This document shows, piece by piece, positions 1 to 14,769 of a DNA stretch of 15,531 nt. How positions within the stretch are numbered: the stretch's first letter is position 1; each line of letters opens with the position of its first letter. The translations under genes were made by a program, and so were the position numbers. Under the pieces are notes generated by a model, which did not search any database, had not been told where the DNA came from, and saw only the letters and a list, made by a program, of their open reading frames with translations. This DNA comes from an uncultured Faecalibacterium sp. (GTDB taxonomy: Bacteria > Bacillota > Clostridia > Oscillospirales > Ruminococcaceae). The stretch lies in the NCBI GenBank assembly GCA_934503275.1, contig CAKSVD010000029.1, positions 1 through 15,531 on the forward strand. The letters run 5' to 3'.

Positions 1-755
1 CACAGGTAGGGCAGGCAGAACAGCCCGAACAGCTTGAGCGCCTGCAGGGCAAAAATTTTCAGGCAGCGGGGCTTATCTGCCAGCAGGCGGCGGCTCTCGG
101 TGCCCAGCACCTCCAGCTGCTCCAGCCAGTCGGCACGGCGCTGCTGCCACTTTTCGGTCTTGGGCAGAAAGCCCAGCAGCCAGCGGGCGAGGCTTTGCAC
201 CAGCGGCGAGATACACAGCAGCACCAGCGCCACAATGACCACCGCTACCACAGCGTATGCCATGGGCAGGTAGCGCATGACACCGGTGGTGTTGGCGGCA
301 AGCCAGCGGCGCTGCAACAGCAGCATCACGGTGGCGTACAAAAGCACCGTGCTCTTGTGGAAAACGTATTCCAGCGTCATCAGACCTGCGCCGGGGCCCA
401 GCGGCAGCCCGGCCCGGTGCAGGTAGTACAGCTGCACCGGCACCGCACCGGCACCCAGCGTGACTACGTTGCCAAAGGTGCCGCACCAGCCCACATCCAG
501 CCCCTGCCATAGCTTGAACTGCGGCAGACGGCTGCGCACGATGACCCACGCCACGCACCCTTCCAGCAGGGGGTAGCTGAGTCCGACCGCCAGCACCGCC
601 AGCACCTGCCACACCGACAGCTGCGCCAGCGCCGCAGTGATCTCGGCCCAGTGATCCTTAAACGTGAACACGATGATGCAGGTAAGTGCCAGCAGCACCA
701 GCAGAGAGATCACGGTCTTTTTGCGGGAGGGCTGCTGCGCGGCGGCTTGGCTCAT
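1..755 (-). CDS. LPG-synthase-like (UPF0104) integral membrane protein, 3' end outside window
   Basis: The first 251 codons of a hydrophobic protein are present; the frame runs off the left edge without a stop. Start ATG at 753-755 follows an AAAGGAG ribosome binding site. After a basic N-terminus (residues 1-14, ending RKK) come several membrane helices (about 15-33, 45-65, then segments around 125-140 and 150-175). The stretch with TFGNVVTLGAGAVPVQLYYL followed by HRAGLPLGPG resembles the conserved core of the lysylphosphatidylglycerol synthase transmembrane/flippase family (UPF0104, PF03706). Members translocate or help make modified lipids or polyprenyl-linked material; many lack the cytoplasmic synthase domain, and whether this one has it cannot be seen. 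It has its own promoter and lies downstream of a terminated glycosyltransferase unit, so a role in envelope lipid or glycan export is an inference. Family fairly sure, substrate unknown. Confidence 0.75.
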   Translation of the reverse strand, partial: MSQAAAQQPSRKKTVISLLVLLALTCIIVFTFKDHWAEITAALAQLSVWQVLAVLAVGLSYPLLEGCVAWVIVRSRLPQFKLWQGLDVGWCGTFGNVVTLGAGAVPVQLYYLHRAGLPLGPGAGLMTLEYVFHKSTVLLYATVMLLLQRRWLAANTTGVMRYLPMAYAVVAVVIVALVLLCISPLVQSLARWLLGFLPKTEKWQQRRADWLEQLEVLGTESRRLLADKPRCLKIFALQALKLFGLFCLPYL

Positions 756-807
756 GGATACAAAACTCCTTTCGGTACGGTTGATCTTAACCGGAAATTC
801 TGGAACC

Positions 808-816
808 AGTATAGCA
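808..816 (-). promoter_or_regulatory. Extended -10 promoter of the UPF0104 gene
   Basis: Read on the minus strand the site is TGC-TATACT, an extended -10 element about 50 bp before the start codon. No good -35 box lies 16-18 bp upstream (ACAAAG or CACAAA), which suits the extended -10 class. The 12-mer TGTGCTATACTG that contains it recurs at two other promoters in the window. Confidence 0.6.
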
Positions 817-900
817 CATCTTCCGCTGCCCTTTGTGAACGGAAGCGGAACTTTGTTGGGCAATTTGAGATATTTGATAAAATGAGGAGATCTCCCATGA

Positions 901-937
901 AAAAATGCCGGGCAGCGTGCGGCTGCCCGGCATTGCT
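901..937 (-). terminator. Intrinsic terminator of the acyltransferase/coiled-coil/glycosyltransferase unit
   Basis: A perfect 13-bp stem (AATGCCGGGCAGC at 904-916 against 922-934) with a 5-nt loop is followed, on the minus strand, by a run of six T. It begins a few bases after the glycosyltransferase stop codon and closes that transcription unit before the UPF0104 promoter. Confidence 0.9.
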
Positions 938-943
938 TTTCGA

Positions 944-2548
944 TCATTCGTTTCCGTCCGTCAGCTCTTTTACAAGCCTTGTCAGGGTGGCTACATAGGA
1001 CTCGTTGGAGAATTTCTGCTCGTACAGGCGGCGGCAATCCTCGTGCATGGCGGCCAGTGCCTCCGGGTGCTCGATGGCCCAAGCCAGCTTGTCGGCCAGC
1101 TGCTGCGGGTCATCGTCCTTGTAGAGGAAGCCGTCCACGCCCTCGGTCACAAGCCCGGCGGTGCCGGTGTGCTCCGATACGATGGAGGGCTTGCCGAAGA
1201 TCAGACCCTCGGTGACAAAGGTGGGCATGGGGTCATCCCGGGAGGCACACACCACGCAATTGCACTGCTCCATCAGGGATTTTACCTCCGGGCGCTCCAG
1301 CCGCTTGCGGTAGAAAACGGTCTGGGGATAGTCCCGCACCAAGCTGTCCACGGCGTTGTACATCCCCTTGTCGGCAGCCTTGCCCACAAAGAGGAAGGCC
1401 GCTTTCTCCCGCACCGCAGAGGGCAGCAGCCGGATGGCATTGCAGAAGATGTCCGGGCCTTTGCGGGGCTCCAACGAGCCGACCGTTACAAAGAGGGTGC
1501 GTCCCCCGGCAAAGCTGATGTCATAGCGGGGGAACTGCTCGGCGGCGTAGTCCGGCAGACCGTAGATCAGCTGCTCGATCTCAAAATCCGGCCGCACCGA
1601 GTGCATGGCGGCGGTGGCATGGGAGCCTACGGCGCAGAGGTGTACGTTTTTGCCCAGTTCCCGGGGGATCTTGTGGGCGATGAAGGGGTAGCCCGCAAAG
1701 GCATCGTGCAGCCACCACAGCACCGGCACAAAGGAGCCGTTCAGGGTGCGCACCACAGGGGCCTCCACCACCGTATTGGCCAGCACAAAGTCCGCGCTGG
1801 TAGCCAGCCCCCACAGGGCGCTGGAGGTAACACAGTCCGGGCGGGTGACCACGGCGGCACCCGCCTCCAGAAACAATTGCAGCGGCCCCTCGTCCGCAGG
1901 GCCCAGCACCACTACCTCAAAGCCAAGGCTGCGCAGCACCGGTACGGCGCTTACCAGCACGATGGGCGCACCGGTCATGGTCAACTCGTGGCTCAGGATC
2001 AGCGCACGGCGTCCCTTGGCAGAGAATACATCCTCGGCGCACAGCTCCCGGCGGAAGTGCAGCAGCGCCTGCGGGATGCAGCAGCTGTGCTGTGCCATGG
2101 CATGGGCCAGACGCAGCAGCTCGGTAACGCTGTCCTTACCCCGGGCGGCGGCGCGTATCTCGTCCAGCAATGCGCGGGACACCAGTGCGCAGCTGCTGCC
2201 GGGCAGGTGCCGGGTGCTCAGGTACAGGGCGGTGGAGCCGTCAAAGCCAAAGGAGGCATCGCAGACCGCAAGGTCTGCCCCCTCCCGCAGAGCAGCGGCA
2301 AAATAGGTCAGGGCGGTGGGAACGCACTCCACATCCTCGCTTACCAGCAGCACCCCGGCTACATCGGGGGTCAGTTCGCCCTCAAGCTGGGTCACCAGAC
2401 GGAACTTGCGGTGCAGCTGGTTTTGCAGCGCCGCCTCCAGCGCCTTGTGACGCCCCGGCGCGTAGACCAGAAGATAGGTGCTTTGGGTATCGGTATAGAC
2501 CTGCGCGGACAATTGCCTGCGCTGCAGGGTACTGTAACTGGTGTACAT
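944..2548 (-). CDS. GT4-type glycosyltransferase with degenerate GT2-like N-terminal region
   Basis: 534 residues; ATG preceded by GAAGGAG. Residues about 180-530 form a GT-B fold: an acceptor-side half opening with ALILSHELTMTGAPIVL (182-198), the family's usual first strand-loop, and a C-terminal donor-binding half with GSLEPRKGPDIF (357-368), CASRDDPMPTFVTEGL (434-449) and FGKPSIVSEHTGTAGLV (451-467), the GT4 nucleotide-sugar signature. Residues about 22-165 read like a worn GT2/GT-A domain: LLVSEDVECVPTAL (67-80) sits where GT2 enzymes have a D-x-D metal motif, here SED, followed by ADLAVCD. No signal peptide or membrane helix, so probably cytoplasmic. It is the last gene of a unit with a coiled-coil partner 33 bp upstream and an acyltransferase. 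Likely job is adding a sugar to an envelope polysaccharide or glycolipid; donor and acceptor are not readable. Confidence 0.85.
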   Translation of the reverse strand: MYTSYSTLQRRQLSAQVYTDTQSTYLLVYAPGRHKALEAALQNQLHRKFRLVTQLEGELTPDVAGVLLVSEDVECVPTALTYFAAALREGADLAVCDASFGFDGSTALYLSTRHLPGSSCALVSRALLDEIRAAARGKDSVTELLRLAHAMAQHSCCIPQALLHFRRELCAEDVFSAKGRRALILSHELTMTGAPIVLVSAVPVLRSLGFEVVVLGPADEGPLQLFLEAGAAVVTRPDCVTSSALWGLATSADFVLANTVVEAPVVRTLNGSFVPVLWWLHDAFAGYPFIAHKIPRELGKNVHLCAVGSHATAAMHSVRPDFEIEQLIYGLPDYAAEQFPRYDISFAGGRTLFVTVGSLEPRKGPDIFCNAIRLLPSAVREKAAFLFVGKAADKGMYNAVDSLVRDYPQTVFYRKRLERPEVKSLMEQCNCVVCASRDDPMPTFVTEGLIFGKPSIVSEHTGTAGLVTEGVDGFLYKDDDPQQLADKLAWAIEHPEALAAMHEDCRRLYEQKFSNESYVATLTRLVKELTDGNE

Positions 2549-2581
2549 GATCCAACTCCTTCAGGCAGAATATCAGGCGGG

Positions 2582-3376
2582 TCAGTGACCGCGCACTAGG
2601 TTCAGCAGCCTGCGCAGGGGGGCGGTCAGCCGCCAGCTGCTGCTGGCGCGCATCGTTTCCAGCGAGACCTGATATTCGTGCTGGATGCCCTGCAAGGTCA
2701 GCAGCTGCTGGTTCAGCCGCATACACTCGGCGCGGCTGGTCTGCAATGCCTCATCGGCCTCCTGCGCAGCAGCGTCGTTCTTCAGCTTCAGGTCGTTCAG
2801 CGCCCGCAGCAGAGATTTGCCGGGCTGCTCGTGCAGAAAACGTCCCAGCGGGTAGTAGTGATAGTTCACCGCAAACTTCATGCCGGCACCAAAGCCGGAG
2901 GTGCAGTGCAGCGAAAGATTGGGGTCTACGTCCAGAAACAGCAGACAGTCCTCCTGCAGCATAAGGCCGTTGATCGACTGGAAGCTGATGCGCTCGTCCG
3001 AGATGGCAAGGTCGGTGATGCAGCAGGCCAGCTCGCCCGGGTCCAGCCGGATGGCGCGGGCGTCCTCCGGCAGGATGAAGGTGACAGACACCTCGTGGGT
3101 CAGTTCGTTGTAGGCGTCCTCGGTGGCGATCAGGCATTCCCGGGGCGAAAAACCGTTGCCGGTGTCGTAAAACAGCTGCGGCAGGGTAAGGGCGATGTTA
3201 TCCGTCTCGGTGGAGTGCTTGGCAAGTTCGGTCTGGCAGACCAGAAGCTGCTGCTCCAACTCCAGACACCGCTGCGCCAGCCGGGAAACACCCTCGTCTG
3301 AAAGCTTGAGCTGCTGCTCCAACTCGGCAACGTGGGCCTGCAGGGCAGCAGGGGTCACGGGGGTTTCGTGGTTCAT
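2582..3376 (-). CDS. Coiled-coil protein with beta-rich middle, probable glycosyltransferase accessory chain
   Basis: 264 residues; ATG behind GAGGAGG. Three parts can be seen: an N-terminal coiled coil (about 10-55, rich in L, E and Q heptads); a beta-rich block (about 65-185) opening with LFYDTGNGFSPRE and containing AIRLDPGELACCI; and a second coiled coil (about 190-245) ending in SSSWRLTAPLRRLLNLVRG. From recollection of the families, the D-x-G-x-GF block and the S-SWR-T-PLR tail recur inside large multi-domain glycosyltransferases of Firmicutes and in O-antigen or rhamnan enzymes, normally joined to a catalytic domain. Here no catalytic domain is present. The gene lies 33 bp before the glycosyltransferase, so it may be that enzyme's separately encoded scaffold or chain-length partner. 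Function is inferred; the architecture is seen. Confidence 0.7.
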   Translation of the reverse strand: MNHETPVTPAALQAHVAELEQQLKLSDEGVSRLAQRCLELEQQLLVCQTELAKHSTETDNIALTLPQLFYDTGNGFSPRECLIATEDAYNELTHEVSVTFILPEDARAIRLDPGELACCITDLAISDERISFQSINGLMLQEDCLLFLDVDPNLSLHCTSGFGAGMKFAVNYHYYPLGRFLHEQPGKSLLRALNDLKLKNDAAAQEADEALQTSRAECMRLNQQLLTLQGIQHEYQVSLETMRASSSWRLTAPLRRLLNLVRGH

Positions 3377-3408
3377 AACAGGGGCCTCCTCTTCCTATCC
3401 TGTAAACT

Positions 3409-3428
3409 CGGCTGCGCCGCCGCAGCCG
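3409..3428 (-). other. Intergenic hairpin between acyltransferase and coiled-coil genes
   Basis: An 8-bp perfect stem (CGGCTGCG/CGCAGCCG) with a 4-nt loop occupies the 70-bp gap inside the operon. There is no T-run after it on the minus strand, so it is not a standard terminator. It could act as an mRNA processing or 3'-end stabilising stem that sets unequal expression of the upstream and downstream genes. Confidence 0.35.
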
Positions 3429-3446
3429 GAATGCGCATAAATAATA

Positions 3447-4562
3447 TCAGTGCCGCGGGGCGTAGTGCACCTGCGGGGTGTGCCGCCGGGCGGGGAACAG
3501 CCGGATGATCAGATCCCGCCGCCGCTGCAGCAGGGCGCAGATCAGCCAGATAGAGCCCAGCGAAAAGACGTATTGCAGCCCAACGCCCAAAAGCGGACGG
3601 TCTGCATACTTTGCCGCAAACAGATACCAGGGAATAGCGGTAAGCTCCACAGTATGTATGCAAAAAATGTACAGGGAGCGCCGGCCAATGGATTCAAGAA
3701 AGCGCACCAGCACATTCCGGTGCCGGTTCAGCCGTAAAAACAGCCGGACGAACAGTAGGCCGACAAGGCCGTTCAGCAGGATGCTGACAGGGCCCATCGT
3801 CCACTCTGCCATGGAAACACAGTCTGTGCGGCCGGTGGCAAGGGTGGCTGCCGGGATCAGCAGCAGGGCAGCCCACAGGATGCAGGTCATCCGGCGGGAC
3901 AGGGGCTGATCCAGCCAGTGCTGACGCTTGGCAAGGTAGCCAAGGTACAGGTACGGCATGATCACCGCGCCCTGGATCAGGCAGAAGGGCAGCTCCCATG
4001 CAAGGCTGGCACCCCAGCCCAGCAGGGCGCAGCCACCCACCGCCCAAGGGATGTACCGCTCCGGGAAGATGTTCAGGATAACGTCCAGCAGGATCCAGCC
4101 CATCAGCAGCGCCAGCAGATACCACATGGGCCCGCAGGAAAAGAACTCCTGCCCGAAGTAGGTGGCGGTGTGGGGCAGACCCAGCAAAAAGCCGCCCGCT
4201 ACCTTGATGCTCTCGGTCAGTGAGCCGGGCAGATAGTGAAAGGTACTATAATGAATAATAAAGTGCAGCACCGTGGTAAAGACCGCCGTGTAGCAAAAGG
4301 GCTTGAGCAGACTTTTGAGCTGCTGGTGGATGCACTTGCGGATGGAACGCTTGCGGAAGCCGTAGCCGCTGGCAATAAAAAAGGCTGCCATCAGTGCTTC
4401 GCGGTAGGTAAAGCCCACAAAGGCGACCAGAGTCAGACTGCGCTCCAGCTGGATCGGATAAAGTTCTACAGTGTGCCCCAGCACGATGCCCAGCATCCCT
4501 GCGCCCTTGAGCATATCGAACATCCCGATGGAACTGACGGTGCGGGGCTTGGTTGTTTCCAT
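3447..4562 (-). CDS. Acyltransferase-3 family integral membrane protein
   Basis: 371 residues from the ATG at 4560-4562, chosen because GGAAGGAA sits 7-8 bases upstream; a 20-residue extension to a TTG at 4622 lacks a binding site. About ten hydrophobic helices span the length. The N-terminus FDMLKGAGMLGIVLGHTVELYP matches the acyltransferase-3 (PF01757) first helix, with the H of LGHT in the place of the conserved catalytic histidine. FFIASGYGFRKRSIRK fits the family's F-x-SG-(Y/F)-x-x-x-(R/K) element, and SLYIFCIHTVEL its late helix. Such enzymes move acetyl, succinyl or longer acyl groups from a cytoplasmic donor to sugars or lipids at the membrane. First gene of a three-gene unit with a coiled-coil protein and a glycosyltransferase, so O-acylation of an envelope glycan or glycolipid is the likely task. 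Family sure, substrate unknown. Confidence 0.88.
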   Translation of the reverse strand: METTKPRTVSSIGMFDMLKGAGMLGIVLGHTVELYPIQLERSLTLVAFVGFTYREALMAAFFIASGYGFRKRSIRKCIHQQLKSLLKPFCYTAVFTTVLHFIIHYSTFHYLPGSLTESIKVAGGFLLGLPHTATYFGQEFFSCGPMWYLLALLMGWILLDVILNIFPERYIPWAVGGCALLGWGASLAWELPFCLIQGAVIMPYLYLGYLAKRQHWLDQPLSRRMTCILWAALLLIPAATLATGRTDCVSMAEWTMGPVSILLNGLVGLLFVRLFLRLNRHRNVLVRFLESIGRRSLYIFCIHTVELTAIPWYLFAAKYADRPLLGVGLQYVFSLGSIWLICALLQRRRDLIIRLFPARRHTPQVHYAPRH

Positions 4563-4661
4563 GAAAGATTCCTTCCCTGCGCCGGGCAAATACCCCTTTA
4601 GAAAAAGCCGGATACGGCGCAAATGATCAGTTTTTATACAGCATCGCCATGATATATGGCT

Positions 4662-4690
4662 AGTATAATGCTTTTTTGAGAGACTGTCAA
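4662..4690 (-). promoter_or_regulatory. Sigma-70-type promoter of the acyltransferase unit
   Basis: On the minus strand: TTGACA (4685-4690), a 17-bp spacer, then TATACT (4662-4667). This is a near-consensus housekeeping promoter. Transcription would start near 4655 and give a leader of about 90 nt before the acyltransferase ATG. Confidence 0.85.
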
Positions 4691-4706
4691 TTTTGTTTTG
4701 CAGTCT
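4681..4706. promoter_or_regulatory. Inverted repeat overlapping the -35 box (candidate operator)
   Basis: AGACTG (4681-4686) and CAGTCT (4701-4706) form a perfect 6-bp inverted repeat around a 14-bp AT-rich spacer. The left arm overlaps the TTGACA box of the minus-strand promoter, where a bound dimer would block RNA polymerase. No regulator gene is adjacent. Confidence 0.4.
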
Positions 4707-4851
4707 GCGTGAGAGCGGGTATGGTATTTTGCGCTAAAAATTGTAGCACAGGAACCGGCGGATTGCAACGAAAGGTAGAATTTGGCCAAACCGCGCCGGA
4801 CGATATGCAAGTAAAAATTGTCAATGCAGGAAATTAAATGTTGCAGAAGTA

Positions 4852-4880
4852 TTGCATTGCCATGGAAGATATTGTATACT
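4852..4880 (+). promoter_or_regulatory. Promoter of the ligase/ACP/acyltransferase operon
   Basis: TTGCAT (4852-4857), a 17-bp spacer and TATACT (4875-4880) match the housekeeping consensus well. Transcription would start at about 4887, just before the first leader hairpin, leaving a leader of about 139 nt. Confidence 0.8.
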
Positions 4881-4886
4881 GAGCAC

Positions 4887-5025
4887 AGAGCGATCGCGCG
4901 CGGGCATCCACCGTGCGCGACCCGATCCCCCGGATGGAGCGTACCCTGCCGCGGCCCCGCAATGCCGCAGGCAAGCCGGTACGCTGTGTATAAAACGGAT
5001 GAAACAAAACAGGAAGGAAGCTACA
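4887..5025 (+). promoter_or_regulatory. Structured 5' leader with three tandem hairpins
   Basis: Immediately after the predicted start site come three packed hairpins: a 10-bp stem 4894-4903/4911-4920 (one G-U pair, 7-nt loop), a short stem ATCC/GGAT (4925-4928/4932-4935), and an outer 8-bp perfect stem AGCGTACC/GGTACGCT (4938-4945/4978-4985) with a GC-rich inner part. Then an unstructured A-rich stretch carries the AGGAAGGAAG ribosome binding site of the ligase gene. No T-run follows the last stem, so it is not an obvious attenuator. It does not match a riboswitch class I can name. It could stabilise the mRNA, bind a protein, or be a cis-regulatory element. Confidence 0.5.
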
Positions 5026-6492
5026 ATGGAAAAATTCGTGGATAATATGTACGATGCCATCACGCTGGGCATGGAAAAGGAATTTCCCGAGTGCGTGGCT
5101 TTTCGTTACTACAATGAGGATACCGACGCGGTGACCACCGTCCTTTTTAAGGAACTGGCACAGGATGTCCGCCGGATGGTCAACTACCTCCAGAGCACCA
5201 TCCCGGATGTGAAGGGCAAGAAGATCTGCCTGCTGAGCAAGAACAGCTATGAGTATGTGGTAGACACCTTTGGCGCGATCATGGCAGGCTGTGTGCTGGT
5301 GCCGCTGAACCAGCACAAGAGCTGGGCAGAGATGTCCCACGAGTTGGAACTGGTGGAGCCTGCCGCCATTCTGACCGATGGCGTGGACTACGGCAACAAG
5401 GAGCAGCTGGAGGCTGCGTACGGCAGCCTGCTGCACCCCATGGACGACTTCCGCAGCTACGAGCCGGTGGCCGAGCTGCACCCCATTGACCACGAGGCTC
5501 TGATGGTGCTGATGTTCACCTCCGGCACCACCGGCATAAGCAAGGGCGTTATGATGAGCGAACACAACCTGTTCAGCGCAGGCGCTATCATGTGGGCCAT
5601 CTCCGCACAGGTGAAGTCGCGGCTTAAGGTAAAGGATTCCCAGCCCGGCCACTACATGATGCTGCCCATGTTCCATATGGGCGCCTTCATCGACCTGTTC
5701 TCCACCACCGTCATGGGCTGGCCGCTGAATCTGGGCTTCGATGCCCGCAACTTCTACCGCGATGTCCAGAAGATGTCCAGCCAGATCATGTCCGTGGTGC
5801 CGGTGATCATGAACTCCCTGCACAAGGACGTGATGCGCGGCCGCCGCGACCGTCTGGGCGATCTGTGGACATTCATCGGCTCCTCTGCCATGTTTGACCC
5901 GCAGGTGCTGCTGGATATGGTGAACAACGGGATGTTCATCGTCCAGTGCTACGGCGCTACCGAGACCTGCGCCGCCGGTATCATCAACTTTGCACAGGAC
6001 GCAAAGCACATTGGCGCCGTGGGTCAGGGCAGCAAGCTGATGGACTACAAGATCGAGCCGGACGGCGAACTGTGTATGCGCGGCGAAAGCGTGATGATGG
6101 GCTACTATAAGGACCCGGAGGGTACTGCAGAGGTCATCGACAAGGACGGCTGGTTCCACACCGGCGACCTTGCCCGGGTGGACGAGGACGGCTACTATTA
6201 CATTACCGGACGCAAGAAGAACCTGATCATTCTGGACAGCGGCGAGAACATCAGCCCCGAGGAACTGGAGGGCATGGTAGAAAAATGTCCCGTTGTGAAG
6301 GAATGTATCGTAAAAGAACTGGGCAAAAAGATAGGTGTTGTGGTATACTGTGAGCAGGAGCACCAGCAGACCGTGCGGGACTTTGTTACCCAGATGAACC
6401 GCACCATCCCGCTGTACAAGCGTATCGGTGTAGTGGAGTTCAGCGAAACTCCGCTGCCCCGCACCGCAACGGGCAAACTGGTGCGTAAGTAA
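5026..6492 (+). CDS. Acyl-AMP/acyl-CoA-type ligase (ANL superfamily)
   Basis: 488 residues; ATG chosen because of AGGAAGGAAG just upstream. It activates a carboxylic acid with ATP to acyl-AMP and passes it to a thiol. Seen motifs: P-loop TSGTTGISKG (165-174), substrate-side LPMFHMGAF (213-221), YGATETCA (309-316), WFHTGDLARVDEDGYYYITGRKK (376-398; ribose-binding Asp 381), the hinge-region block around 399-415 (ILDSGENISPEELE) and PLPRTATGKLVRK with catalytic Lys 484. All motifs needed for both half-reactions are present. It is a little short for long-chain acyl-CoA synthetases (520-650) but normal for a free-standing adenylation enzyme. The free carrier-protein gene starts 27 bp downstream, so the likely thiol acceptor is that protein's phosphopantetheine arm rather than CoA. 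The acid is not predictable by eye: a fatty or short/branched acid is more likely than an amino acid because the sequence resembles acyl-CoA synthetases throughout. Confidence 0.9.
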   Translation: MEKFVDNMYDAITLGMEKEFPECVAFRYYNEDTDAVTTVLFKELAQDVRRMVNYLQSTIPDVKGKKICLLSKNSYEYVVDTFGAIMAGCVLVPLNQHKSWAEMSHELELVEPAAILTDGVDYGNKEQLEAAYGSLLHPMDDFRSYEPVAELHPIDHEALMVLMFTSGTTGISKGVMMSEHNLFSAGAIMWAISAQVKSRLKVKDSQPGHYMMLPMFHMGAFIDLFSTTVMGWPLNLGFDARNFYRDVQKMSSQIMSVVPVIMNSLHKDVMRGRRDRLGDLWTFIGSSAMFDPQVLLDMVNNGMFIVQCYGATETCAAGIINFAQDAKHIGAVGQGSKLMDYKIEPDGELCMRGESVMMGYYKDPEGTAEVIDKDGWFHTGDLARVDEDGYYYITGRKKNLIILDSGENISPEELEGMVEKCPVVKECIVKELGKKIGVVVYCEQEHQQTVRDFVTQMNRTIPLYKRIGVVEFSETPLPRTATGKLVRK

Positions 6493-6519
6493 AACGCAAC
6501 AGAAAGGAAGCATAATACG

Positions 6520-6762
6520 ATGGAACGTGCAGAAATAATTTCTCAGATCACGGCTATTCTGGAGGATGTCGCGGAGGTGTCGCCGGAGGATGTGACCGAA
6601 AGCAGCGTCCTGATGGACGATCTGGATCTGTCCTCTATGGAGATCCTGACCGTTGTGGCAGATATCGAGGAGACCTTTGGTCTGCGCATCCCGGAAAAGG
6701 AACTGCGCAACTTTGTCACCATGGGTGATCTGGTGGATTATCTGGCAGCAAACGTGGGGTAA
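6520..6762 (+). CDS. Free-standing acyl carrier protein
   Basis: 80 residues, acidic, with the four-helix carrier-protein pattern; ATG follows AGAAAGGAAG. The phosphopantetheine site is in DDLDLSSMEIL, with Ser 39 as the modified residue. The Asp that usually precedes it (D-S-L) is Ser 38 here, a variant that I recall in carrier proteins of acyl-ligase clusters but not in the FabD/FabH-served fatty-acid carrier. It would take an acyl group from the upstream ligase and present it to the downstream acyltransferase, whose ATG lies 6 bp after its stop, implying coupled translation. No phosphopantetheinyl transferase is in the window, so the host's general enzyme must activate it. The alternative, the housekeeping fatty-acid ACP, is unlikely because no fab genes are near. 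Confidence 0.92.
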   Translation: MERAEIISQITAILEDVAEVSPEDVTESSVLMDDLDLSSMEILTVVADIEETFGLRIPEKELRNFVTMGDLVDYLAANVG

Positions 6763-6768
6763 AGACCA

Positions 6769-7977
6769 ATGGAAGCACAACAGCGCTCGACGGAATATAA
6801 CTTGCAGGGCGTCATGTACTTTTTCCGTCGGGACAAGGTCCAGTGCCGGTACCAGTTCTCGCTGCGGGATGCGGTGGATATTACCCTTTTGCAGCGGGCA
6901 CTGACAGCGGCCTTGGCAAATGCACCTTATTATACCCAGCGTCTGGTGCAGGAAAAGCGGGGAATGTGGCTGGAGCCCAATACCGAGCCCTGCCTTGTGT
7001 ACCCCGGCAGCACCATGCGCAATATCCCGGAGCAGACGAACGGCTATCTGTTCTGCATCAGCTGCGAGGGGGATACCGTCTACTTTGACTGGCACCACTT
7101 CCTGCTGGACGGCCACGGGGTATCGCCCCTGTTCACCAGCATTCTGGAGCAGTACTGCAACCTGCGTTACGGCACTGCCTTTGTGGCACCGGCCATCGTG
7201 TGCGACCCGCCCTATGATATGGAGGCCATACTGGCAAAATATCCGCCTGTGGAGAGCGGCAGCGATGTCATTCAGCGGGAAGCGGTGCAGACTTACGAGG
7301 ATGCGCTGCGTCGCACCCGGGTGTGCCTGAGCAAGCAGAGCCTTGTGGAAAAGGCGCTGGCAAACAACGCAAAGCCGGTAAGCGCTCTGATGGGGTTGCT
7401 GTGCATGGCCATGCGGGAGTATCTTGGCAAGGAGAATATCCAGTATTCCTTCTCTACCGATACCCGCGATGTGGCCGGTGTGCCGAATGCACTGTACAAC
7501 TGTGTGTGCAGCTTTGAGCATACGGTGCAGCTGCAGGCCCAGACCCGCCTTGCGGATCTTGTACCGGATATAGATGCAAACATCAAGCGGGACCTGCAGC
7601 CGGAGACCAAGCTTCGCCGTATGGCGGTACAGATGGGCTGGGTGTACAAGGTGGAGCAGCAAAAGGTCCCCCTGCGCATCAAGCAGCGGGTGTTCCAGAT
7701 GGGCGAGTACGTCGGCGGTACCATCTCGGATTTCTGGCTCAGCTATCTGGGCAATCCGCTGATGCCTGCCAAACCGGAACTGGCACAGTACACCACGGAT
7801 TTTGGTGTCTGGGTACCGCCGGAGGGCGCATCCGTGGGTGTGGAGGCTGCCAGCCTGAACGGAAAGATCATCCTGTGCATCCACAGCAAGGCACCCATCC
7901 CGGGTCTGGCTGATATCATCTGCAAGACCTTTGAACGTGAAGGGGTTGCGGTGCTGGAAGCTGCCGATCTGGACTGA
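6769..7977 (+). CDS. HHxxxDG acyltransferase (condensation-domain / alcohol acyltransferase superfamily)
   Basis: 402 residues. The catalytic motif HHFLLDG is at 109-115 (His 109, His 110, Asp 114, Gly 115), preceded by VYFDW and followed by HGVSPLF, as in the chloramphenicol-acetyltransferase-like superfamily that includes NRPS condensation domains, papA-type and wax-ester/alcohol acyltransferases. The second half contains FSTDTRDVAGVPNALYNCV (about 228-246), which fits the D-x-R-x-x-x-x-N element near the channel floor, and ends with DFGVWVPPEG. No signal peptide or membrane helix. Length suits a single two-lobed enzyme. It would transfer the acyl group from the carrier protein to an amine or hydroxyl of an unidentified acceptor. 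It is the last gene before a terminator; there are no NRPS or PKS modules, so this is a minimal three-component acylation line. Confidence 0.82.
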   Translation: MEAQQRSTEYNLQGVMYFFRRDKVQCRYQFSLRDAVDITLLQRALTAALANAPYYTQRLVQEKRGMWLEPNTEPCLVYPGSTMRNIPEQTNGYLFCISCEGDTVYFDWHHFLLDGHGVSPLFTSILEQYCNLRYGTAFVAPAIVCDPPYDMEAILAKYPPVESGSDVIQREAVQTYEDALRRTRVCLSKQSLVEKALANNAKPVSALMGLLCMAMREYLGKENIQYSFSTDTRDVAGVPNALYNCVCSFEHTVQLQAQTRLADLVPDIDANIKRDLQPETKLRRMAVQMGWVYKVEQQKVPLRIKQRVFQMGEYVGGTISDFWLSYLGNPLMPAKPELAQYTTDFGVWVPPEGASVGVEAASLNGKIILCIHSKAPIPGLADIICKTFEREGVAVLEAADLD

Positions 7978-7991
7978 GAGATACTTACAAT

Positions 7992-8042
7992 AGACCGGGG
8001 CGTTCTCCCGCAGGGAAGGACGCCCCGGTCTTATTCTGTTTT
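7992..8042 (+). terminator. Terminator of the ligase operon, shared with convergent birA
   Basis: A 12-bp stem (AGACCGGGGCGT at 7992-8003 against 8020-8031) with a 16-nt loop is followed on the plus strand by TTATTCTGTTTT. The right arm touches the birA stop codon. On the minus strand the hairpin is followed only by TATTGT, so it works mainly for the plus-strand operon and perhaps weakly for birA. Confidence 0.85.
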
Positions 8043-8993
8043 GGTGGGACGGATGGTCACCTCGCCGCAGCGCAGCGCCTCGGTGCGGCCGCCCTCCCGC
8101 TGCACCACCAGCCGCCCGGCATCGTCGATGGAAAGCGCCTGTGCGGCGTAGGTCTCGGAGCCGGTGCAAACGGTCACCCAGTGGCCGGGCACAAAGCAGC
8201 GGGCGCGGTATTCGTCCAGACAGGTAAAGCCCGGGCAGAGCGCTAACAGCTCCCGCCCGATGGCACCCGCCAGCGCCGCCCGGCTTACCGGGGCGGGGCC
8301 GCCGGGGTATAAGCTGCCTGCTTTGGTGGCCAATTCCGGGGGAAAGTCCTCCGCCGTGGCGGTCAGGTTCAGCCCGATGCCCACTACCAGCCACTCCAGC
8401 TGACCGCTTTCAAGGTCGGTGCCGGCCTCGGTCAGGATGCCGCACACCTTTTTGCCCTTGTAATACAGGTCGTTCACCCACTTGATGGCAAGTTCCAGCC
8501 CGCACAGCGTCTGCACCGCCCGGCACACCGCCACCGCCGCGCCGATGGTGACGGTCTGGGCGTTGGCGGCGGGCAGCGGTGGGCGCAGCACTACTGAGCA
8601 GTACACCCCCTTGCCCGCCGGGCTGGCAAAGCTGCGTCCCAGCCGCCCGCGCCCGGCGGTCTGCCCGCCCGCCAGCACCAGCGTGCCGTGGGCAGTGCCT
8701 TCCAGCGCCAGCAGCTTTGCGGTGCGGTTGGTGCTTTCCAGCGTGTCGTACAACTGCACCGGGGCGGGGTAGGGACCTACCGCCTCGGCGCAGAAGGGGT
8801 CGCCGCCCAGCAGACGGTACCCCCGGCGGGAGGCTGCTTCCAGCGCATAGCCCTGCGCGGTAAGCGCCGCTGCTGCTTTGTGCACGGCAGCGCGGCTGAC
8901 CCCCAGCTGCTGCGCCAGCTGCTGGCCGGAAATATATGCGCCCTCGGCGGCGCTGAGCGCCTGTAAAAGCGCCTGACGGGTGGTAGAAGCCAT
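8031..8993 (-). CDS. birA: Bifunctional biotin-protein ligase / biotin operon repressor
   Basis: 320 residues; ATG with GGGAGGAT upstream. It makes biotinyl-AMP and attaches biotin to carboxylase carrier subunits. An N-terminal winged helix-turn-helix (about 8-60, GQQLAQQLGVSRAAVHKAAAAL) marks the repressor-type class. The ligase core shows STN (87-89), the biotinyl-AMP loop GRGRLGR (114-120), KWVNDLYYKGKKVCGIL (171-187) with the catalytic-region Lys 171, and VVGIGLN. A small C-terminal SH3-like domain follows (from about 270). Length is normal. It stands alone, convergent with the acylation operon and divergent from the sigma-factor operon. A -10 TACAAT at 9025-9030 on the minus strand probably drives it. 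No BirA operator was found nearby. Confidence 0.95.
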   Translation of the reverse strand: MASTTRQALLQALSAAEGAYISGQQLAQQLGVSRAAVHKAAAALTAQGYALEAASRRGYRLLGGDPFCAEAVGPYPAPVQLYDTLESTNRTAKLLALEGTAHGTLVLAGGQTAGRGRLGRSFASPAGKGVYCSVVLRPPLPAANAQTVTIGAAVAVCRAVQTLCGLELAIKWVNDLYYKGKKVCGILTEAGTDLESGQLEWLVVGIGLNLTATAEDFPPELATKAGSLYPGGPAPVSRAALAGAIGRELLALCPGFTCLDEYRARCFVPGHWVTVCTGSETYAAQALSIDDAGRLVVQREGGRTEALRCGEVTIRPTKTE

Positions 8994-9010
8994 GGCGTAA
9001 ATCCTCCCTG

Positions 9011-9030
9011 TGTGCTATACTGCTATTGTA
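9011..9030 (+). promoter_or_regulatory. Back-to-back promoters of the sigma-factor operon (plus) and birA (minus)
   Basis: On the plus strand TGTGC-TATACT (-10 at 9016-9021) is an extended -10 element, giving a leader of about 140 nt for the sigma-factor gene; the -35 region (TGGCGT) is poor. On the minus strand TACAAT (9025-9030) lies 31 bp before the birA ATG, with TTTTTC as a weak -35 at 17 bp. The two -10 boxes are only 3 bp apart, so the two polymerases should compete. In the plus leader a GC-rich stem CGCCGCC/GGCGGCG (9086-9092/9117-9123) can form. Confidence 0.45.
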
Positions 9031-9166
9031 CCATATCTGCGGCAGAAGAAAAAGTTTGAAAATATTTTAGTCTTTTTGCAGGAACCGCCGCCGCTGCTTC
9101 GTATTAAAGACAGAAGGGCGGCGCAGAGCACCGCATCCAGAACCGGAAAGGAGGCCGTGCAGCGCG

Positions 9167-9712
9167 TTGACAACACAGGAATTCAGCACGATGGTGCAGA
9201 AATATCAGGCGCTCGTGTACACGGTCTGCCACCAGCTGGTACCGGATGTACAGGAGGCGCAGGATCTGACGCAGGAGACCTTTCTGGCAGCGTGGCGGGC
9301 CATCGACCGCTGTCCGCCCGGCTTTGAAAAGCAGTGGCTGGCGCGCATCGCGGCCAACAAAGCCAAGGACTATCTGCGCAGCGCATGGGTGCGCAAGATG
9401 AACACCCCCGGCGACGAGGTGCTGGCGCTGGAGGGCGCGCCGCCCGGTATGCAGCCGGAGCAGCAGGTGCTGGAAGCGCTGGGCGAGGAAGAACTTACGG
9501 AGATGATCTTAAACCTGCGTGAGCCCTACCGCACACCCTGCTGTCTGGTGCTGCTGGAGCAGCACACCATGGCCGAGGCTGCAAGGCTGTGCGGCCGCCC
9601 GCCCAAAACGGTGGAAGCGCAGATCTACCGCGCCAAAAAGATGCTGGCGCAGCAGATCTTGCAAAACGACCGCATACCCTGTGAAAGGAGGAGCGTACAT
9701 GGAACTGTTTGA
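9167..9712 (+). CDS. ECF (extracytoplasmic function) RNA polymerase sigma factor
   Basis: 181 residues from a TTG start at 9167; AAAGGAGG lies 12 bases before it and no in-frame ATG is better placed (the next, at residue 9, would cut region 2). Region 2 spans about 5-75 with the polymerase-core element AQDLTQETFLAAWRAI (31-46) and the DNA-melting/-10 segment LARIAANKAKDYLRS. Region 4 spans about 105-165 with the helix-turn-helix HTMAEAARLCGRPPKTVEAQIYRAKKML. No region 1 or 3, and a normal length for the class. It overlaps the anti-sigma gene by 14 bp, the standard partner arrangement. It redirects RNA polymerase to a small stress regulon, probably including its own operon. The regulon cannot be read from the window. 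Confidence 0.93.
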   Translation: MTTQEFSTMVQKYQALVYTVCHQLVPDVQEAQDLTQETFLAAWRAIDRCPPGFEKQWLARIAANKAKDYLRSAWVRKMNTPGDEVLALEGAPPGMQPEQQVLEALGEEELTEMILNLREPYRTPCCLVLLEQHTMAEAARLCGRPPKTVEAQIYRAKKMLAQQILQNDRIPCERRSVHGTV

Positions 9713-10220
9713 CGCAAAAGGCTGTCTGAGTGAGGAAGGCTTGCAGGCACTGGTCGGCGGGCAATTGGACGAAACGCAGCGGCTGGAAGCCGCCGAGCAC
9801 CTTGCCTACTGCGACCGCTGCATGGACCGCTACACCGCCCTGTTGACCGACGATGTGCTGGAGCAGCCGCCGCGTTCCGCCTGGGGCGCGGTGATGGGCA
9901 CCATCTGGATACGGCTGATGCAGAACACATGGGGACGCGCTGCTGTGGCAACGGTGGCGGCGGTTTTGGCGCTGACACTGTGGCGCACCGGTACGCTGGA
10001 ACAGATCCTGCACACCGGGCAGCAGCTGAACACATGGCTGCCGCAGACCACACAGCAGACCGAACCGGAGCTGCTGGGCAAGCCGGTGAACGACAAAGCC
10101 CCGCAGCAATCCACCGCTCCGCTGGGCAAGCCCATAGAGGACAAAAAACAGCTGACCGAAAAACTATCCGATGCACTGGACGCGCTTTTGCACCGCAGTG
10201 CAGACACCACTGAGAAATGA
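9699..10220 (+). CDS. Zinc-type membrane anti-sigma factor
   Basis: 173 residues; ATG with GAAAGGAGGAG just upstream, inside the end of the sigma gene, so translation is coupled. The N-terminal domain carries the H-x3-C-x2-C zinc-finger signature HLAYCDRC (His 34, Cys 38, Cys 41) of ZAS/putative zinc-finger anti-sigma factors, which bind and hold the sigma factor. One membrane helix follows (about 80-97, AAVATVAAVLALTLW), then an outer tail of about 75 residues, Gln/Thr-rich, with two copies of a LGKP(V/I)xDK motif (126-133, 142-149). Signal perception would occur by this tail, by redox change at the cysteines, or through the two membrane proteins encoded next. ZAS family fairly sure; the trigger is unknown. 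Confidence 0.88.
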   Translation: MELFDAKGCLSEEGLQALVGGQLDETQRLEAAEHLAYCDRCMDRYTALLTDDVLEQPPRSAWGAVMGTIWIRLMQNTWGRAAVATVAAVLALTLWRTGTLEQILHTGQQLNTWLPQTTQQTEPELLGKPVNDKAPQQSTAPLGKPIEDKKQLTEKLSDALDALLHRSADTTEK

Positions 10221-10231
10221 GGGAACTGATT

Positions 10232-10966
10232 ATGAAGAAAAACGGGATCCTGACCCTGCTGTTTGCCTGCATCCCCGGTGCGGGGCAGATGTATCAGGGC
10301 TATATGAAGCGAGGGCTTTCGCTCATCACCATGTTCTGCCTGTTCATTATCGTGGGCAGCACCACGGGGCTGGACGCACTGGTAGTCGGCTGTATCGTTG
10401 TGTATATGTACAGCTTTTTCGATACCTTGAACCTCCGCGCGCAGCTGGCGGCGGAAAAAGCCCCGGAGGATGATTATCTGGTGCACTTTAACTGGCACGA
10501 CGCCCGCATGACCCAGTTCATGGGCGAAAGCCACAAGCTGGTGGGCTGGGGGCTCATCGCACTGGGCGCCATCGTGTTCTACAACAACATCATCATGCGG
10601 GTGCTGGGCGATGTGATGTGGCGCTGGGGACAGGATAACCCGGTTTTCCGCGCCATCTACCTGATGCTGGATGCCCTGCCGCAGATCGTGGTCTGCGTGG
10701 CGCTGATCGTGTGCGGTATGTGGCTGGTGCGCGGCCCGAAGAACAAAAAGGGCAAGCAGCCCGCCGAGGAGGAACCCGAGGACTTCCACGCCTACACGGC
10801 TGCGCCGCAGGCAGAGGATGCAGAGGATGCCGCGGACACCGCGGACACTGCGGACACGGACACCCATTTTGCCATGCCGGAGCTTTCGGCACTGCTGGGG
10901 GAGCCGGTGACCGGTGCAGAGCAGGACGAAAACCCTGCGGAGGATGACGATGACCGAGCAGAATAA
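10232..10966 (+). CDS. Four-helix membrane protein with acidic repetitive tail, ECF operon
   Basis: 244 residues from the ATG at 10232, preferred over an ATG at 10217 (overlapping the upstream stop) because GAGGGAAC lies 7-8 bases before it. The N-terminus LTLLFACIPGAGQMYQGYMKRGL resembles the start of TM2-like membrane proteins (G-x-G-x-x-Y-x-G-x-x-x-x-G). Helices at about 29-45, 48-65, 104-122 and 148-166; a soluble loop 68-100 between the pairs; then a highly acidic tail (175-244) with a repeated Glu-Asp-Ala / Ala-Asp-Thr stretch. No enzyme motif. Third gene of the sigma operon, 11 bp after the anti-sigma stop and overlapping the next gene by 17 bp, so probably a sensor or modulator of the anti-sigma factor. 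Function not known. Confidence 0.75.
   Translation: MKKNGILTLLFACIPGAGQMYQGYMKRGLSLITMFCLFIIVGSTTGLDALVVGCIVVYMYSFFDTLNLRAQLAAEKAPEDDYLVHFNWHDARMTQFMGESHKLVGWGLIALGAIVFYNNIIMRVLGDVMWRWGQDNPVFRAIYLMLDALPQIVVCVALIVCGMWLVRGPKNKKGKQPAEEEPEDFHAYTAAPQAEDAEDAADTADTADTDTHFAMPELSALLGEPVTGAEQDENPAEDDDDRAE
10811..10864 (+). repeat. In-frame 9-bp tandem repeats coding the acidic tail
   Basis: Two copies of GCAGAGGAT are followed by three copies of GCGGACAC(C/T/G) and a partial GACACC. The period of 9 keeps the reading frame, so copy-number changes would lengthen or shorten the Asp/Thr-rich tail without breaking the protein. Confidence 0.75.
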
Positions 10967-11786
10967 GACCCCTTTGACGGCTCAGCCGGGCAGCGCGCCC
11001 GCGCCGGAGCGCAAGCCCACAGAAAAGCCCCTGCGCCGGGTGGGCAGCCTGACTTTGGGCGCGTGCCTCATTGCGGCGGGCGTGTTCTTCCTGTTGTATT
11101 TCTTTGTGCCGGGCTTTGATGTGCAGCTGACCCTGAAGATCGCCCCGGCGGTGGCGCTGGTTCTGCTGGGATGCGAGGTGCTGTTCTTTGCCGCTCGCCC
11201 CGGCCGCTGGAAGTACGATTTTGTATCCGTGCTGGTCTGTCTGGTGCTGATGGCGGGCTGCTTCTGCATGGCGATGCTGCCCCTGCTGTGGGACGAGTTG
11301 AGCGGCGAAAATCAGCAGACGATGAACCGCCTGAGCGCACAGGCCATTGACGAACTGTACACCGCCTGCAAGCAGGATGCGCAGGATATTGCCATCCGGG
11401 ATATCAGCGGCAGAATGTTCCTGAGCGGCCCGCAGGCCGAAACCTTGCAGCAGGCCGCCGCCCTGCCCGCCGGGGATGTCTACCTGACCTTGACCGTGGA
11501 GCTGTTCGGCCCCTACGACAGCGCCGCCGCCTTTGCCCGGGACTGCTACACCCTGACCGCACTGGCAAAGCAGTGCACCGTGCCGCCGGAAAATCTGCAC
11601 TTTACATGGGATGCCCGCAGCCCGGCAGAAAGCAGCCTGAACACCGGCAGTCTGCTATACACCGAGGACTATTCGCTGGATCTGAGCGGCGCTGTGCAGC
11701 TGGACTGGACAGAGCAGCAGATGGAGCAGCAGACCGAGACCGAGTATCTGCTGGATGCAGAGAATATCCCCGACGAGGAAGAATGA
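10950..11786 (+). CDS. Three-helix membrane protein with LiaI/LiaF-like membrane region, ECF operon
   Basis: 278 residues. The ATG at 10950 is chosen because GGAGG ends 6 bases upstream; an ATG at 10944 is too close to it. After a basic cytoplasmic N-terminus (1-32) come three membrane helices (about 33-53, 62-82, 90-114). The run RRVGSLTLGACLIAAGVFFLL ... LKIAPAVALVLLGCEVLFFA resembles the LiaI-LiaF-like membrane region found in envelope-stress sensors. The rest (about 115-278) is a soluble, acidic domain of no recognised family, probably outside the cell by helix count. It ends the sigma-factor operon, followed at once by a terminator. A role in sensing envelope damage is inferred from the resemblance and from the neighbours. 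Confidence 0.75.
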   Translation: MTEQNKTPLTAQPGSAPAPERKPTEKPLRRVGSLTLGACLIAAGVFFLLYFFVPGFDVQLTLKIAPAVALVLLGCEVLFFAARPGRWKYDFVSVLVCLVLMAGCFCMAMLPLLWDELSGENQQTMNRLSAQAIDELYTACKQDAQDIAIRDISGRMFLSGPQAETLQQAAALPAGDVYLTLTVELFGPYDSAAAFARDCYTLTALAKQCTVPPENLHFTWDARSPAESSLNTGSLLYTEDYSLDLSGAVQLDWTEQQMEQQTETEYLLDAENIPDEEE

Positions 11787-11822
11787 AAAATACCGCTGCA
11801 CAGCTGTGCGGCGGTATTTTTG
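11786..11822 (+). terminator. Terminator of the ECF sigma-factor operon
   Basis: A stem of about 15 bp (11787-11801 against 11806-11820, AAAATACCGC outermost, one T-G pair) with a small AGCT loop ends in a T-run. It starts at the last base of the stop codon. The A-run on its other side means it could also act on the opposite strand. Confidence 0.9.
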
Positions 11823-11845
11823 CAGTGCGGCTGAAGGGATAAACG

Positions 11846-11880
11846 AAAAACGCCCCGAAGTCCTAAGACTTCAGGGCGCT
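11846..11880 (-). terminator. Terminator of tRNA-Thr
   Basis: On the minus strand GCGCCCTGAAGTC and GACTTCGGGGCG pair (one mismatch) around a TTAG loop and are followed by TTTTT. It begins 6 nt after the encoded CCA end of the tRNA and faces the terminator of the convergent sigma-factor operon. Confidence 0.88.
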
Positions 11881-11885
11881 TAAGC

Positions 11886-11961
<76 letters not shown>

Positions 11962-11977
11962 ACATCACAGCCCGATC

Positions 11978-12006
11978 AGTATAGCACAGCTTGACCGGCT
12001 TTGCAA
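11978..12006 (-). promoter_or_regulatory. Promoter of tRNA-Thr
   Basis: On the minus strand TTGCAA (12001-12006), a 17-bp spacer and TATACT (11978-11983), with an extended TGC just before the -10. Transcription would begin about 10 nt before the tRNA 5' end. Confidence 0.8.
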
Positions 12007-12035
12007 GCATTTTTTTGCAAAAAATAAAAAAATGT

Positions 12036-12071
12036 GCAAAAAGCCCCGGAGCATCCGCAGATGCTCCGGGG
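12036..12071 (-). terminator. Terminator of the secreted-protein gene
   Basis: A perfect 12-bp stem (CCCCGGAGCATC/GATGCTCCGGGG, 12044-12055 and 12060-12071) with a 4-nt loop is followed on the minus strand by CTTTTTGC and a second T-rich run. It lies 19 bp after the stop codon. Confidence 0.92.
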
Positions 12072-12090
12072 TTCTGTAAATTGCGTTTAC

Positions 12091-12759
12091 TTACTTTGCC
12101 AGACTGGTCAGGATAGGCTCGCACTGCTCCACGGTGGAGGAGAGCATCAGGTTGTAGGCGGTGACCATCTCCTGAATGGCGGTGCGGTTCTCCTTGGTCA
12201 GGGCGTAACTCTGGGTGGTGCCGTCCCGGCCGATGAACACAGCGGTGACGCTCTTGGCGTTCAGCCACTCGCTCAGCAGGCTGATCTCCTCATCGCTCAG
12301 CTGGAACAACTCCAGATCGAACCAGCAGCCCAGATCCTGATCGTAGCCGCCGCCGTACTCCTTGTCACAGGTGAAGGTGTACAACTCGTCATCAGCAGAT
12401 ACGTTGACCGTTTTGATGTCCAGCTTCTTGCTGCCTGCGTAGGTCAGGATCATGTTAAAGGCAATGCCATCGTCCTGCACGAACATATAGGGGTACAGTC
12501 CGCAGGACTTTTTATCCATGCTGGCCTGCTCCTGCGGAGAGGAAAGATCCCAGCCGCCGGCCTCCTTATCGTAGGTGACGGTGAACTTGGAAAAAGCGGT
12601 TTTGAGTTCGGCATCGCTGGGGGCGGCGTTGGTAGCCTCCACCGCAGCGGGAGCGGCGGGCAGTGCGGGCGCAGCAGCCGAAGCGGCCATGCCGCCGCAC
12701 AGCATGGCGGCAGCGCACAGACCGGCTACGACGCGCCGGAACAAATGGGAAACTCTCAT
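12091..12759 (-). CDS. Secreted or surface protein of unknown function
   Basis: 222 residues; ATG with AAAGGAG ten bases upstream. The N-terminus is a classical signal peptide: FRR charges, hydrophobic core VVAGLCAAAMLCGGMAA and a probable cut after ASA (about residue 28). A short Ala/Pro-rich linker (29-46) precedes a globular domain of about 175 residues, rich in aromatic and acidic residues, with three or four Cys (around CGLYPY, FTCDKEY, LGCWFDL, EQCEP). LCGG could in principle be read as a lipobox fragment, but the signal-peptidase-I pattern is better. No known family recognised. It has its own promoter and terminator, so it is a single-gene unit; the direct repeats upstream of the promoter suggest specific regulation. 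It lies downstream of the M3 peptidase gene. Confidence 0.8.
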   Translation of the reverse strand: MRVSHLFRRVVAGLCAAAMLCGGMAASAAAPALPAAPAAVEATNAAPSDAELKTAFSKFTVTYDKEAGGWDLSSPQEQASMDKKSCGLYPYMFVQDDGIAFNMILTYAGSKKLDIKTVNVSADDELYTFTCDKEYGGGYDQDLGCWFDLELFQLSDEEISLLSEWLNAKSVTAVFIGRDGTTQSYALTKENRTAIQEMVTAYNLMLSSTVEQCEPILTSLAK

Positions 12760-12803
12760 AAGTCAGTACTCCTTTCCATTTTCGAAGGGGGATCTCTGGC
12801 TTC

Positions 12804-12831
12804 AGTATACCGCAGCACGGCAGAAAAGCAA
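12804..12831 (-). promoter_or_regulatory. Promoter of the secreted-protein gene
   Basis: On the minus strand TTGCTT (12826-12831), a 16-bp spacer and TATACT (12804-12809). The start codon is 45 bp downstream. Confidence 0.65.
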
Positions 12832-12838
12832 GAAAACT

Positions 12839-12870
12839 GTCACGAAACGCCCTGCCGCAGTCATGAAACG
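12839..12870. repeat. Two direct repeats with 21-bp period (candidate activator site)
   Basis: GTCACGAAACG (12839-12849) and GTCATGAAACG (12860-12870) match at 10 of 11 positions and start 21 bp apart, two turns of the helix. They sit 7 bp upstream of the -35 box of the secreted-protein gene, where a tandem-binding activator such as a response regulator would be expected. They do not fit the LytTR consensus. Confidence 0.45.
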
Positions 12871-12873
12871 ACT

Positions 12874-14568: not shown

Positions 14569-14685
14569 GGAAAATTTCCTTTCCGGGGCAGTTTCCCCTT
14601 TGGTATCTTGTGTTCATCTTACCACGTTCTGCGCCAAAAGAAAAGAGGGAGGCAAGCGGGTAAAAGTCCTACGTTTATACAACAC

Positions 14686-14713
14686 TGCCAAAAATAAAAA
14701 CGCTCCTTTGGCA
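14686..14713. promoter_or_regulatory. Inverted repeat upstream of the folT promoter
   Basis: TGCCAAA and TTTGGCA form a perfect 7-bp inverted repeat with a 14-bp spacer, 19 bp upstream of the folT -35 box. It may be a regulator site or only a hairpin; no T-run follows either arm. Confidence 0.35.
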
Positions 14714-14723
14714 AAGATGTCCG

Positions 14724-14737
14724 TTTAAGCGCTTGCA
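14724..14737. promoter_or_regulatory. cre-like / LacI-family palindrome over the folT -35 box
   Basis: TTTAAGCGCTTGCA holds the palindrome AAGCGCTT and, read on the minus strand (TGCAAGCGCTTAAA), matches 12 of 14 positions of the CcpA-type consensus TGWAARCGYTWNCW. It overlaps the -35 box at 14733-14738, a repressing position. Confidence 0.35.
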
Positions 14738-14761: not shown

Positions 14762-14769
14762 GGCATCAT

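Follow-up and report, generated by a model that had tools for sequence, protein, structure and literature searches.

What do an acyl-activating ligase, a carrier protein and a soluble transferase do when they are encoded side by side in a gut bacterium, and do they make up a pathway of their own? Such a trio lies in the window, the stretch of 15,531 nucleotides analyzed here, from an uncultured Faecalibacterium sp. (assembly GCA_934503275.1, contig CAKSVD010000029.1, positions 1 to 15,531, forward strand). A sequence-only reading had described it as a minimal, stand-alone acylation line, parallel to the Dlt system but with a soluble, condensation-type enzyme where Dlt has membrane proteins. 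We find that the three-gene unit is real and genuinely co-conserved, but that it is probably not a self-contained pathway: an AT3 membrane acyltransferase, overlooked by that reading, is encoded next door, and the three genes may feed the decoration of cell-surface sugars in an unusual way. The four genes concerned are:

5026..6492, plus strand: ANL-family acyl ligase of the A2 type (488 amino acids; ATG at 5026, stop at 6492; PF00501, E 1.2e-44)
6520..6762, plus strand: acyl carrier protein (ACP; 80 amino acids; PF00550, E 1.5e-9; Ser 39 in LSSM)
6769..7977, plus strand: soluble CAT-fold acyltransferase of the PapA/AATase-like branch (402 amino acids; xHxxxDG)
3447..4562, minus strand: AT3 (OafA-like) membrane acyltransferase (371 amino acids; PF01757, E 3.1e-19 and 69.6 bits against a cut-off of 31, on the open reading frame read from 4622)

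The open reading frames of ligase, ACP and transferase are all open and colinear, and their co-occurrence in related genomes had been set beforehand as a check on the unit, which it passed. The transferase is present in 26 of the 31 genomes of the genus, with 47-89% identity. At these loci the ACP lies directly before the transferase in 26/26 and a ligase before the ACP in 25/26, one of them broken into two open reading frames (G256); in all 25 ligase-bearing loci the ACP stands between ligase and transferase. Regarding the two irregular loci, the single ligase of G256 is split at L094 2108-3063, which may reflect decay or an assembly error, and G268 (L065 5933-8958) keeps AT3, ACP and transferase, with no ligase found between them.

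AT3 is found in 27 of the 31 genomes, and in 27/27 loci it is divergent from the unit, at a distance of 334-581 bp. On the other side of the unit birA is close (64-218 bp) in just 6/26 loci (G259 is undecided, as its contig ends there), and this difference between the two neighbors argues for a partnership of AT3 with the unit. Ligase, ACP, transferase and AT3 occur all together in 25/27 loci, one of them with the broken ligase. The 27th genome with AT3, G255, has kept AT3, ligase and ACP, but of its transferase just 34 residues still give a match (L126 1973-2068). AT3 and transferase are both absent from four genomes of the genus; judged by the distant birA, these are deep branches, and two of them fall short of 90% completeness, which makes the shared lack of both genes weak evidence.

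Outside the genus, the best ligase among 197 genomes of the family was that of G080 (358 bits; the next gave 167). Here ligase, ACP, AT3 and two glycosyltransferases follow each other in a row on a single strand, the ACP with LSSM, and there is no soluble transferase; its AT3 is 32.8% identical to that of the window (E 2.5e-54). An AT3 profile searched against the same 197 genomes at E 1e-20 found, apart from G080, which is a member of the profile, only G169, which is not (E 2.8e-34). G169 likewise has ligase, ACP (motif LSSL) and AT3 without a soluble transferase. Its AT3 is just 22% identical to that of G080, and the arrangement has therefore outlived much change; as Pfam finds no PF01757 in it at E 0.001, its kinship is based on phmmer (76 bits) and on the AT3 profile (118.7 bits). 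In the ligase tree the genus, G080 and G169 stand apart from the ligases of the fatty-acid-amide (FAA) clusters, with support of 97/95. The rows of G080 and G169, together with G255, thus tie AT3 to ligase and ACP also where the soluble transferase is missing, and the description of the line as stand-alone does not hold. Among the ligase hits examined we found no fused ligase-ACP-AT3 protein. Wider AT3 searches gave just G516 (one of 290 other genomes of the class) and G755 (one of 318 other genomes of the phylum). The AT3 relative of G755 adjoins a flippase, a UDP-GlcNAc epimerase and a UDP-sugar dehydrogenase, and that of G516 adjoins GT2 and GT8 glycosyltransferases, a dTDP-sugar epimerase and an ABC exporter; this polysaccharide setting supports a glycan acceptor.

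The three proteins of the unit had been assigned correctly as an acyl-type ligase, a carrier and a CAT-fold transferase, and all their catalytic motifs had been called intact. For the first two this was borne out, Lys 484 being invariant across an alignment of 17 ligases and Ser 39 across one of 10 ACPs. With both PF00501 and the A10 lysine present, the ligase is an ANL adenylating enzyme; its A4 region reads P-M-F-H, which may speak for an acyl substrate, as opposed to an amino acid as in Dlt. HHFLLDG is indeed found at residues 109-115 of the transferase, but in the 26 genomes its first position is His in 4, Phe in 11, Tyr in 10 and Asp in 1, while the second His, the Asp and the Gly are each kept in 26/26. 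Hence the conserved signature is xHxxxDG and the HH of the window is incidental. The AlphaFold2 model of the transferase (pLDDT 89) matched the C domain of SrfA-C (4.1e-18) and PapA5 (2.4e-17) in Foldseek, so that the protein has both the CAT fold, in the predicted model, and the xHxxxDG of PapA/AATase-like acyltransferases. Sequence profiles gave less: Pfam has no match above cut-off for the window transferase, PDB sequence searches with it gave nothing significant, and across 17 family members PapA_C is weak (best E 0.018, in 2/17) and AATase is matched in 0/17; a precomputed PF16911 stands on one of the 120 relatives listed (P0106). Using phmmer with the window proteins, we found no ligase or ACP beside lone transferase homologues of other genera in eight loci from the family search (L057-L064) or six from the class search (L131-L136). 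The result covers these 14 wider loci; other hits were viewed to 1.5 kb at most, among them a minority of those from the class search, and ligases or ACPs unlike those of the window would escape phmmer.

The explanation that fits these results best, and to which we would give an even chance, is an activation module of Dlt-like kind that supplies AT3 with acyl groups from its ACP, joined by a soluble, PapA-like enzyme that forms esters, all serving a glycan or glycolipid. The ligase would make the acyl-AMP and load the acid onto holo-ACP, as in D-alanylation; AT3 would take the acyl group from ACP, directly or through CoA; and the soluble transferase would be an added route to a second acceptor, most likely by esterifying an intermediate that is either lipid-linked or cytosolic. 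Our analysis shows which genes are present, their predicted folds and motifs, how far they are conserved, the AT3 linkage and the loss of a first ligase (below); beyond this we infer the charging of ACP in vivo, the acyl source of AT3, be it ACP itself or CoA, the ester chemistry and the glycan acceptor.

We also compared the locus with known systems. Dlt (DltA, DltC, DltB and DltD) likewise has a ligase, a carrier protein and a membrane acyltransferase (PMC9338922), so a system of this kind is already known. The membrane protein of the window, however, is an AT3 (PF01757) and not an MBOAT like DltB, the TmAT and MBOAT folds being described as distinct (PMC12423673); the PMFH of the ligase is a further difference, and no DltD-like match was found among the profiled open reading frames of the window. 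New are the AT3, standing where Dlt has DltB, and the additional transferase, which is soluble. PapA5, which is reported to transfer acyl groups to a diol (PMC3709824), is 14-17% identical to the window transferase, which differs in being paired with its own ligase and ACP. With the AT3/TmAT proteins OafA/OafB and OatA the window AT3 shares the PF01757 domain, a first helix bearing D-x-x-K-x10-H, and FxxxxG, and D16, K19 and H30 are invariant in an alignment of eight members. AT3 proteins are described as acylating sugars (PMC9558356, PMC9833829); unlike them, the window AT3 is tied to a ligase and an ACP, for which our literature searches showed no precedent among the records listed. We also considered its CoA-binding residues (K for R in R-x10-H and the missing RxxR) as a sign of an ACP donor. 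The RxxR pattern of the third helix has no match in 8/9 AT3s of the group; both features, however, occur in other AT3s of the genus, several of which likewise lack RxxR, and we dropped them as not diagnostic. This control was rough: of the 29 loci inspected, 9 lacked the pattern, and for at least 2 an open reading frame in the wrong frame had plainly been used.

Several observations weigh against AT3 as the destination of the acyl-ACP. AT3 proteins are held to use acyl-CoA and not acyl-ACP (PMC9558356), and CoA could thus be the intermediary of the link. The Faecalibacterium AT3 gene is encoded on the other strand, outside the operon, and common descent accounts for part of its linkage across the genus. 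Of the 27 AT3 loci, 26 retain the soluble transferase, which is therefore no idle extra there, and G268 has kept it without a ligase. G080 and G169 belong to a single genus, and their genomes are 88% and 85% complete. The G169 ligase is 29% identical to that of the window (152 bits), while FAA ligases reach 30-31% (136-205 bits); it is unlisted in the ligase search at E 1e-40, and its position in the tree carries a long-branch warning. Finally, no ligase or ACP was found near the AT3 relatives of G516 and G755, so that this group of AT3s is not always with the module. The polysaccharide context of these relatives and the weak kinship of the G169 ligase pull in opposite directions, and we left our estimate unchanged.

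As a first alternative, the unit could be a soluble small-molecule line, in which the ligase loads the acid on ACP, a free amine or alcohol receives it through the transferase, and the divergent AT3, outside the operon, is an unrelated neighbor. The position of the transferase straight after ACP in 26/26 loci is in line with it, and so are the FAA clusters of gut Clostridia, where a free-standing ligase, an ACP and the condensation protein OaaC are reported to give fatty-acid amides (PMC13142362). Dlt, the one parallel named in the sequence-only reading, is therefore not the only one: the Oaa/CTA clusters have parts of the same three kinds, a free-standing acyl ligase, an ACP and a transferase of CAT/condensation fold in a small operon (PMC13142362, PMC13060934). 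In order to compare them with the window, we fetched 15 candidate free condensation proteins, 12 of which had the order condensation protein-ACP-ligase, as against ligase-ACP-transferase in the window, and aligned 8 of the 12 as a profile. The transferase motif is DHxxxD[SA] in the 12 FAA loci and xHxxxDG in the genus of the window (G in 26/26; first residue H in 4/26 and D in 1/26); the published FAA motif is (D/H)HxxxD(S/A), with G in 17% (PMC13142362). The A4 region reads PMFH or PLFH in the genus, PFYH and PLYH in G080 and G169, and PIHH in FAA ligases; the ACP motif is LSS[ML] in the window, G080 and G169 and [LM]NS[FY] in four aligned FAA-cluster ACPs. The AT3 neighbor of the window unit is a further difference. 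The FAA profile matched OaaC (12kh_A) with 624 bits, whereas the profile of the window transferase family did not list it at E 5, and PF00668 was found in 8/8 FAA members (best 2.8e-41), with a best value of 0.0057 in the window family. By hhalign, the window family aligned over 114 columns with the FAA set (E 2.3e-6) and over 371 with a set of lone CAT-fold proteins that have weak PapA_C or AATase matches (E 1.2e-38), a comparison that leans to the latter set because its members were chosen for resembling the window transferase. On profile, gene-order and ligase comparisons we rejected membership of the unit in the FAA clusters. By profile comparison and gene order the window transferase falls outside the OaaC clade, in another branch, and the unit, though similar in its parts, is separately assembled. 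Since, in addition, homologues of its ligase and ACP stand with AT3 and without the transferase in G080, G169 and G255, we regard the small-molecule line as possible but doubtful.

During these searches we also came across related arrangements. L140 (G097, 1-3033) encodes ligase, ACP and condensation domains on a single protein (order A-T-C), which resembles an FAA cluster joined into one chain. In L141 (G137, 1465-4274) an acyl ligase precedes an ACP that continues into a region matching GNAT weakly. No AT3 is seen in either. L142, L143, L144 and L146 (G127, G182, G093 and G029), which belong to the family of the window, have ACP-ligase pairs beside a cut open reading frame resembling the FAA condensation protein. 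This contrasts with a survey that reports the CTA operon in 36 species, every one Lachnospiraceae (PMC13060934).

Alternatively, the four proteins could form one line, with the soluble transferase unloading ACP and passing its acyl group to a lipid or CoA carrier that AT3 then uses. The presence of all four genes in 25/27 loci (one with a broken ligase) would suit such a relay, as would the PapA5-like fold, PapA5 being reported to acylate a diol (PMC3709824); AT3, ligase and ACP nevertheless occur without the soluble transferase in G080, G169 and G255, and we consider the relay unlikely. That the ligase serves to attach scavenged acids to CoA, with an ACP that is incidental, is very improbable, for although its nearest solved folds are the CoA ligases FadD13, feruloyl-CoA synthetase and MenE, the ACP lies between ligase and transferase in 25/25 loci with a ligase and adjoins the ligase in G080, G169 and G255.

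Returning to the activation module that would feed AT3, we asked whether its single ligase is the original state. Two tandem ligases (A1 and A2) precede the ACP in 15/26 genomes, one in 10 (one broken) and none in 1, as tallied by hand; G253 and G256 give additional hits, which belong to separate ligases located on the other side. The window ligase is of the A2 type, with 85-87% identity to the A2s of the nearest genomes. By comparison with three two-ligase neighbors, window positions 4400 to about 4890 align at 86-89% with the region before A1, and 4948 onward at 89-90% with the A1 end, the spacer and A2. Between operon promoter and ligase lies a scar:

4933..4993, plus strand: decayed remnant of the first ligase, A1, from its 3' end (aligned by blastn with the end of A1 in L071 and in L003)

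Window positions 4931-4993 read RMERTLPRPRNAAGKPVRCV stop, and the A1 end in L071 reads VEFSAEPLPRNATGKLLR stop. The alignments show that A1 was deleted from the window, a remnant of its tail persisting at 4931-4993, and that the one-ligase state that had been called minimal is a derived one. Tandem ligases also show signs of recombination. The single ligase of L070 (G260, 6089-7558) follows the A1 of L071 (G262, 4219-5787) to about residue 409-415 and then an A2, and the A1s of L071 and L003 differ over the large domain, with agreement becoming more frequent beyond about residue 409; the hinge (GRKKN at 395) is close to this break. In a permutation test of the ligase break made after inspection of identity windows, 0/10000 permutations reached the statistic, a value that is overstated because neighboring sites are not independent. 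No such break was found in the window ligase (permutation test, 8384/10000). By these comparisons, the acid-binding domain seems to be exchangeable over a fixed, conserved small C-terminal domain through hinge recombination of tandem ligases. An AT3 fed by a dedicated carrier that its own ligase charges would be a second, independently assembled 'Dlt-type' acylation of surface glycans, with an acid exchangeable through the ligase hinge, an idea that we put forward tentatively.

The remaining features of the window are the signals of the operon and the genes beyond AT3:

4852..4880, plus strand: putative operon promoter, TTGCAT-17-TATACT
7992..8031, no strand assigned: strong hairpin terminator between the convergent operon and birA (-35 kcal/mol, z -5.3)
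4662..4690, minus strand: promoter-like site of the AT3 gene, TTGACA-17-TATACT (11/12 consensus positions; consensus match alone)
2582..3376, minus strand: protein of 264 amino acids after AT3, between AT3 and GT4 (no Pfam match at E 0.001)
944..2548, minus strand: GT4 glycosyltransferase in the direction of AT3 (534 amino acids; PF16994, 1.4e-26; PF00534, 9.3e-23)

The operon promoter proposed from the sequence reads as claimed, but it is missing from the list of our promoter scan; window 4840-4893 matches the sequence that precedes the L071 first ligase at 93% identity (50/54). The terminator was confirmed. As also stated in the sequence-only reading, no match to nonribosomal peptide, polyketide or fatty acid synthases was found among the profiled open reading frames of the window, ligase and ACP themselves apart. 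The 264-residue protein, which is probably on the AT3 transcript, was found by tblastn at 27/27 genus loci, and the GT4 gene at 26/27, the single miss (G256) being a contig end.

Since a fixed ligase-ACP pair lies beside AT3, and in one row with it in another genus, direct use of acyl-ACP by an AT3 becomes testable. If the preferred explanation is true, it points to acyl groups that decorate the surface of a bacterium common in the human gut, and their acid would vary from strain to strain through duplication, loss and hinge recombination of the ligase.

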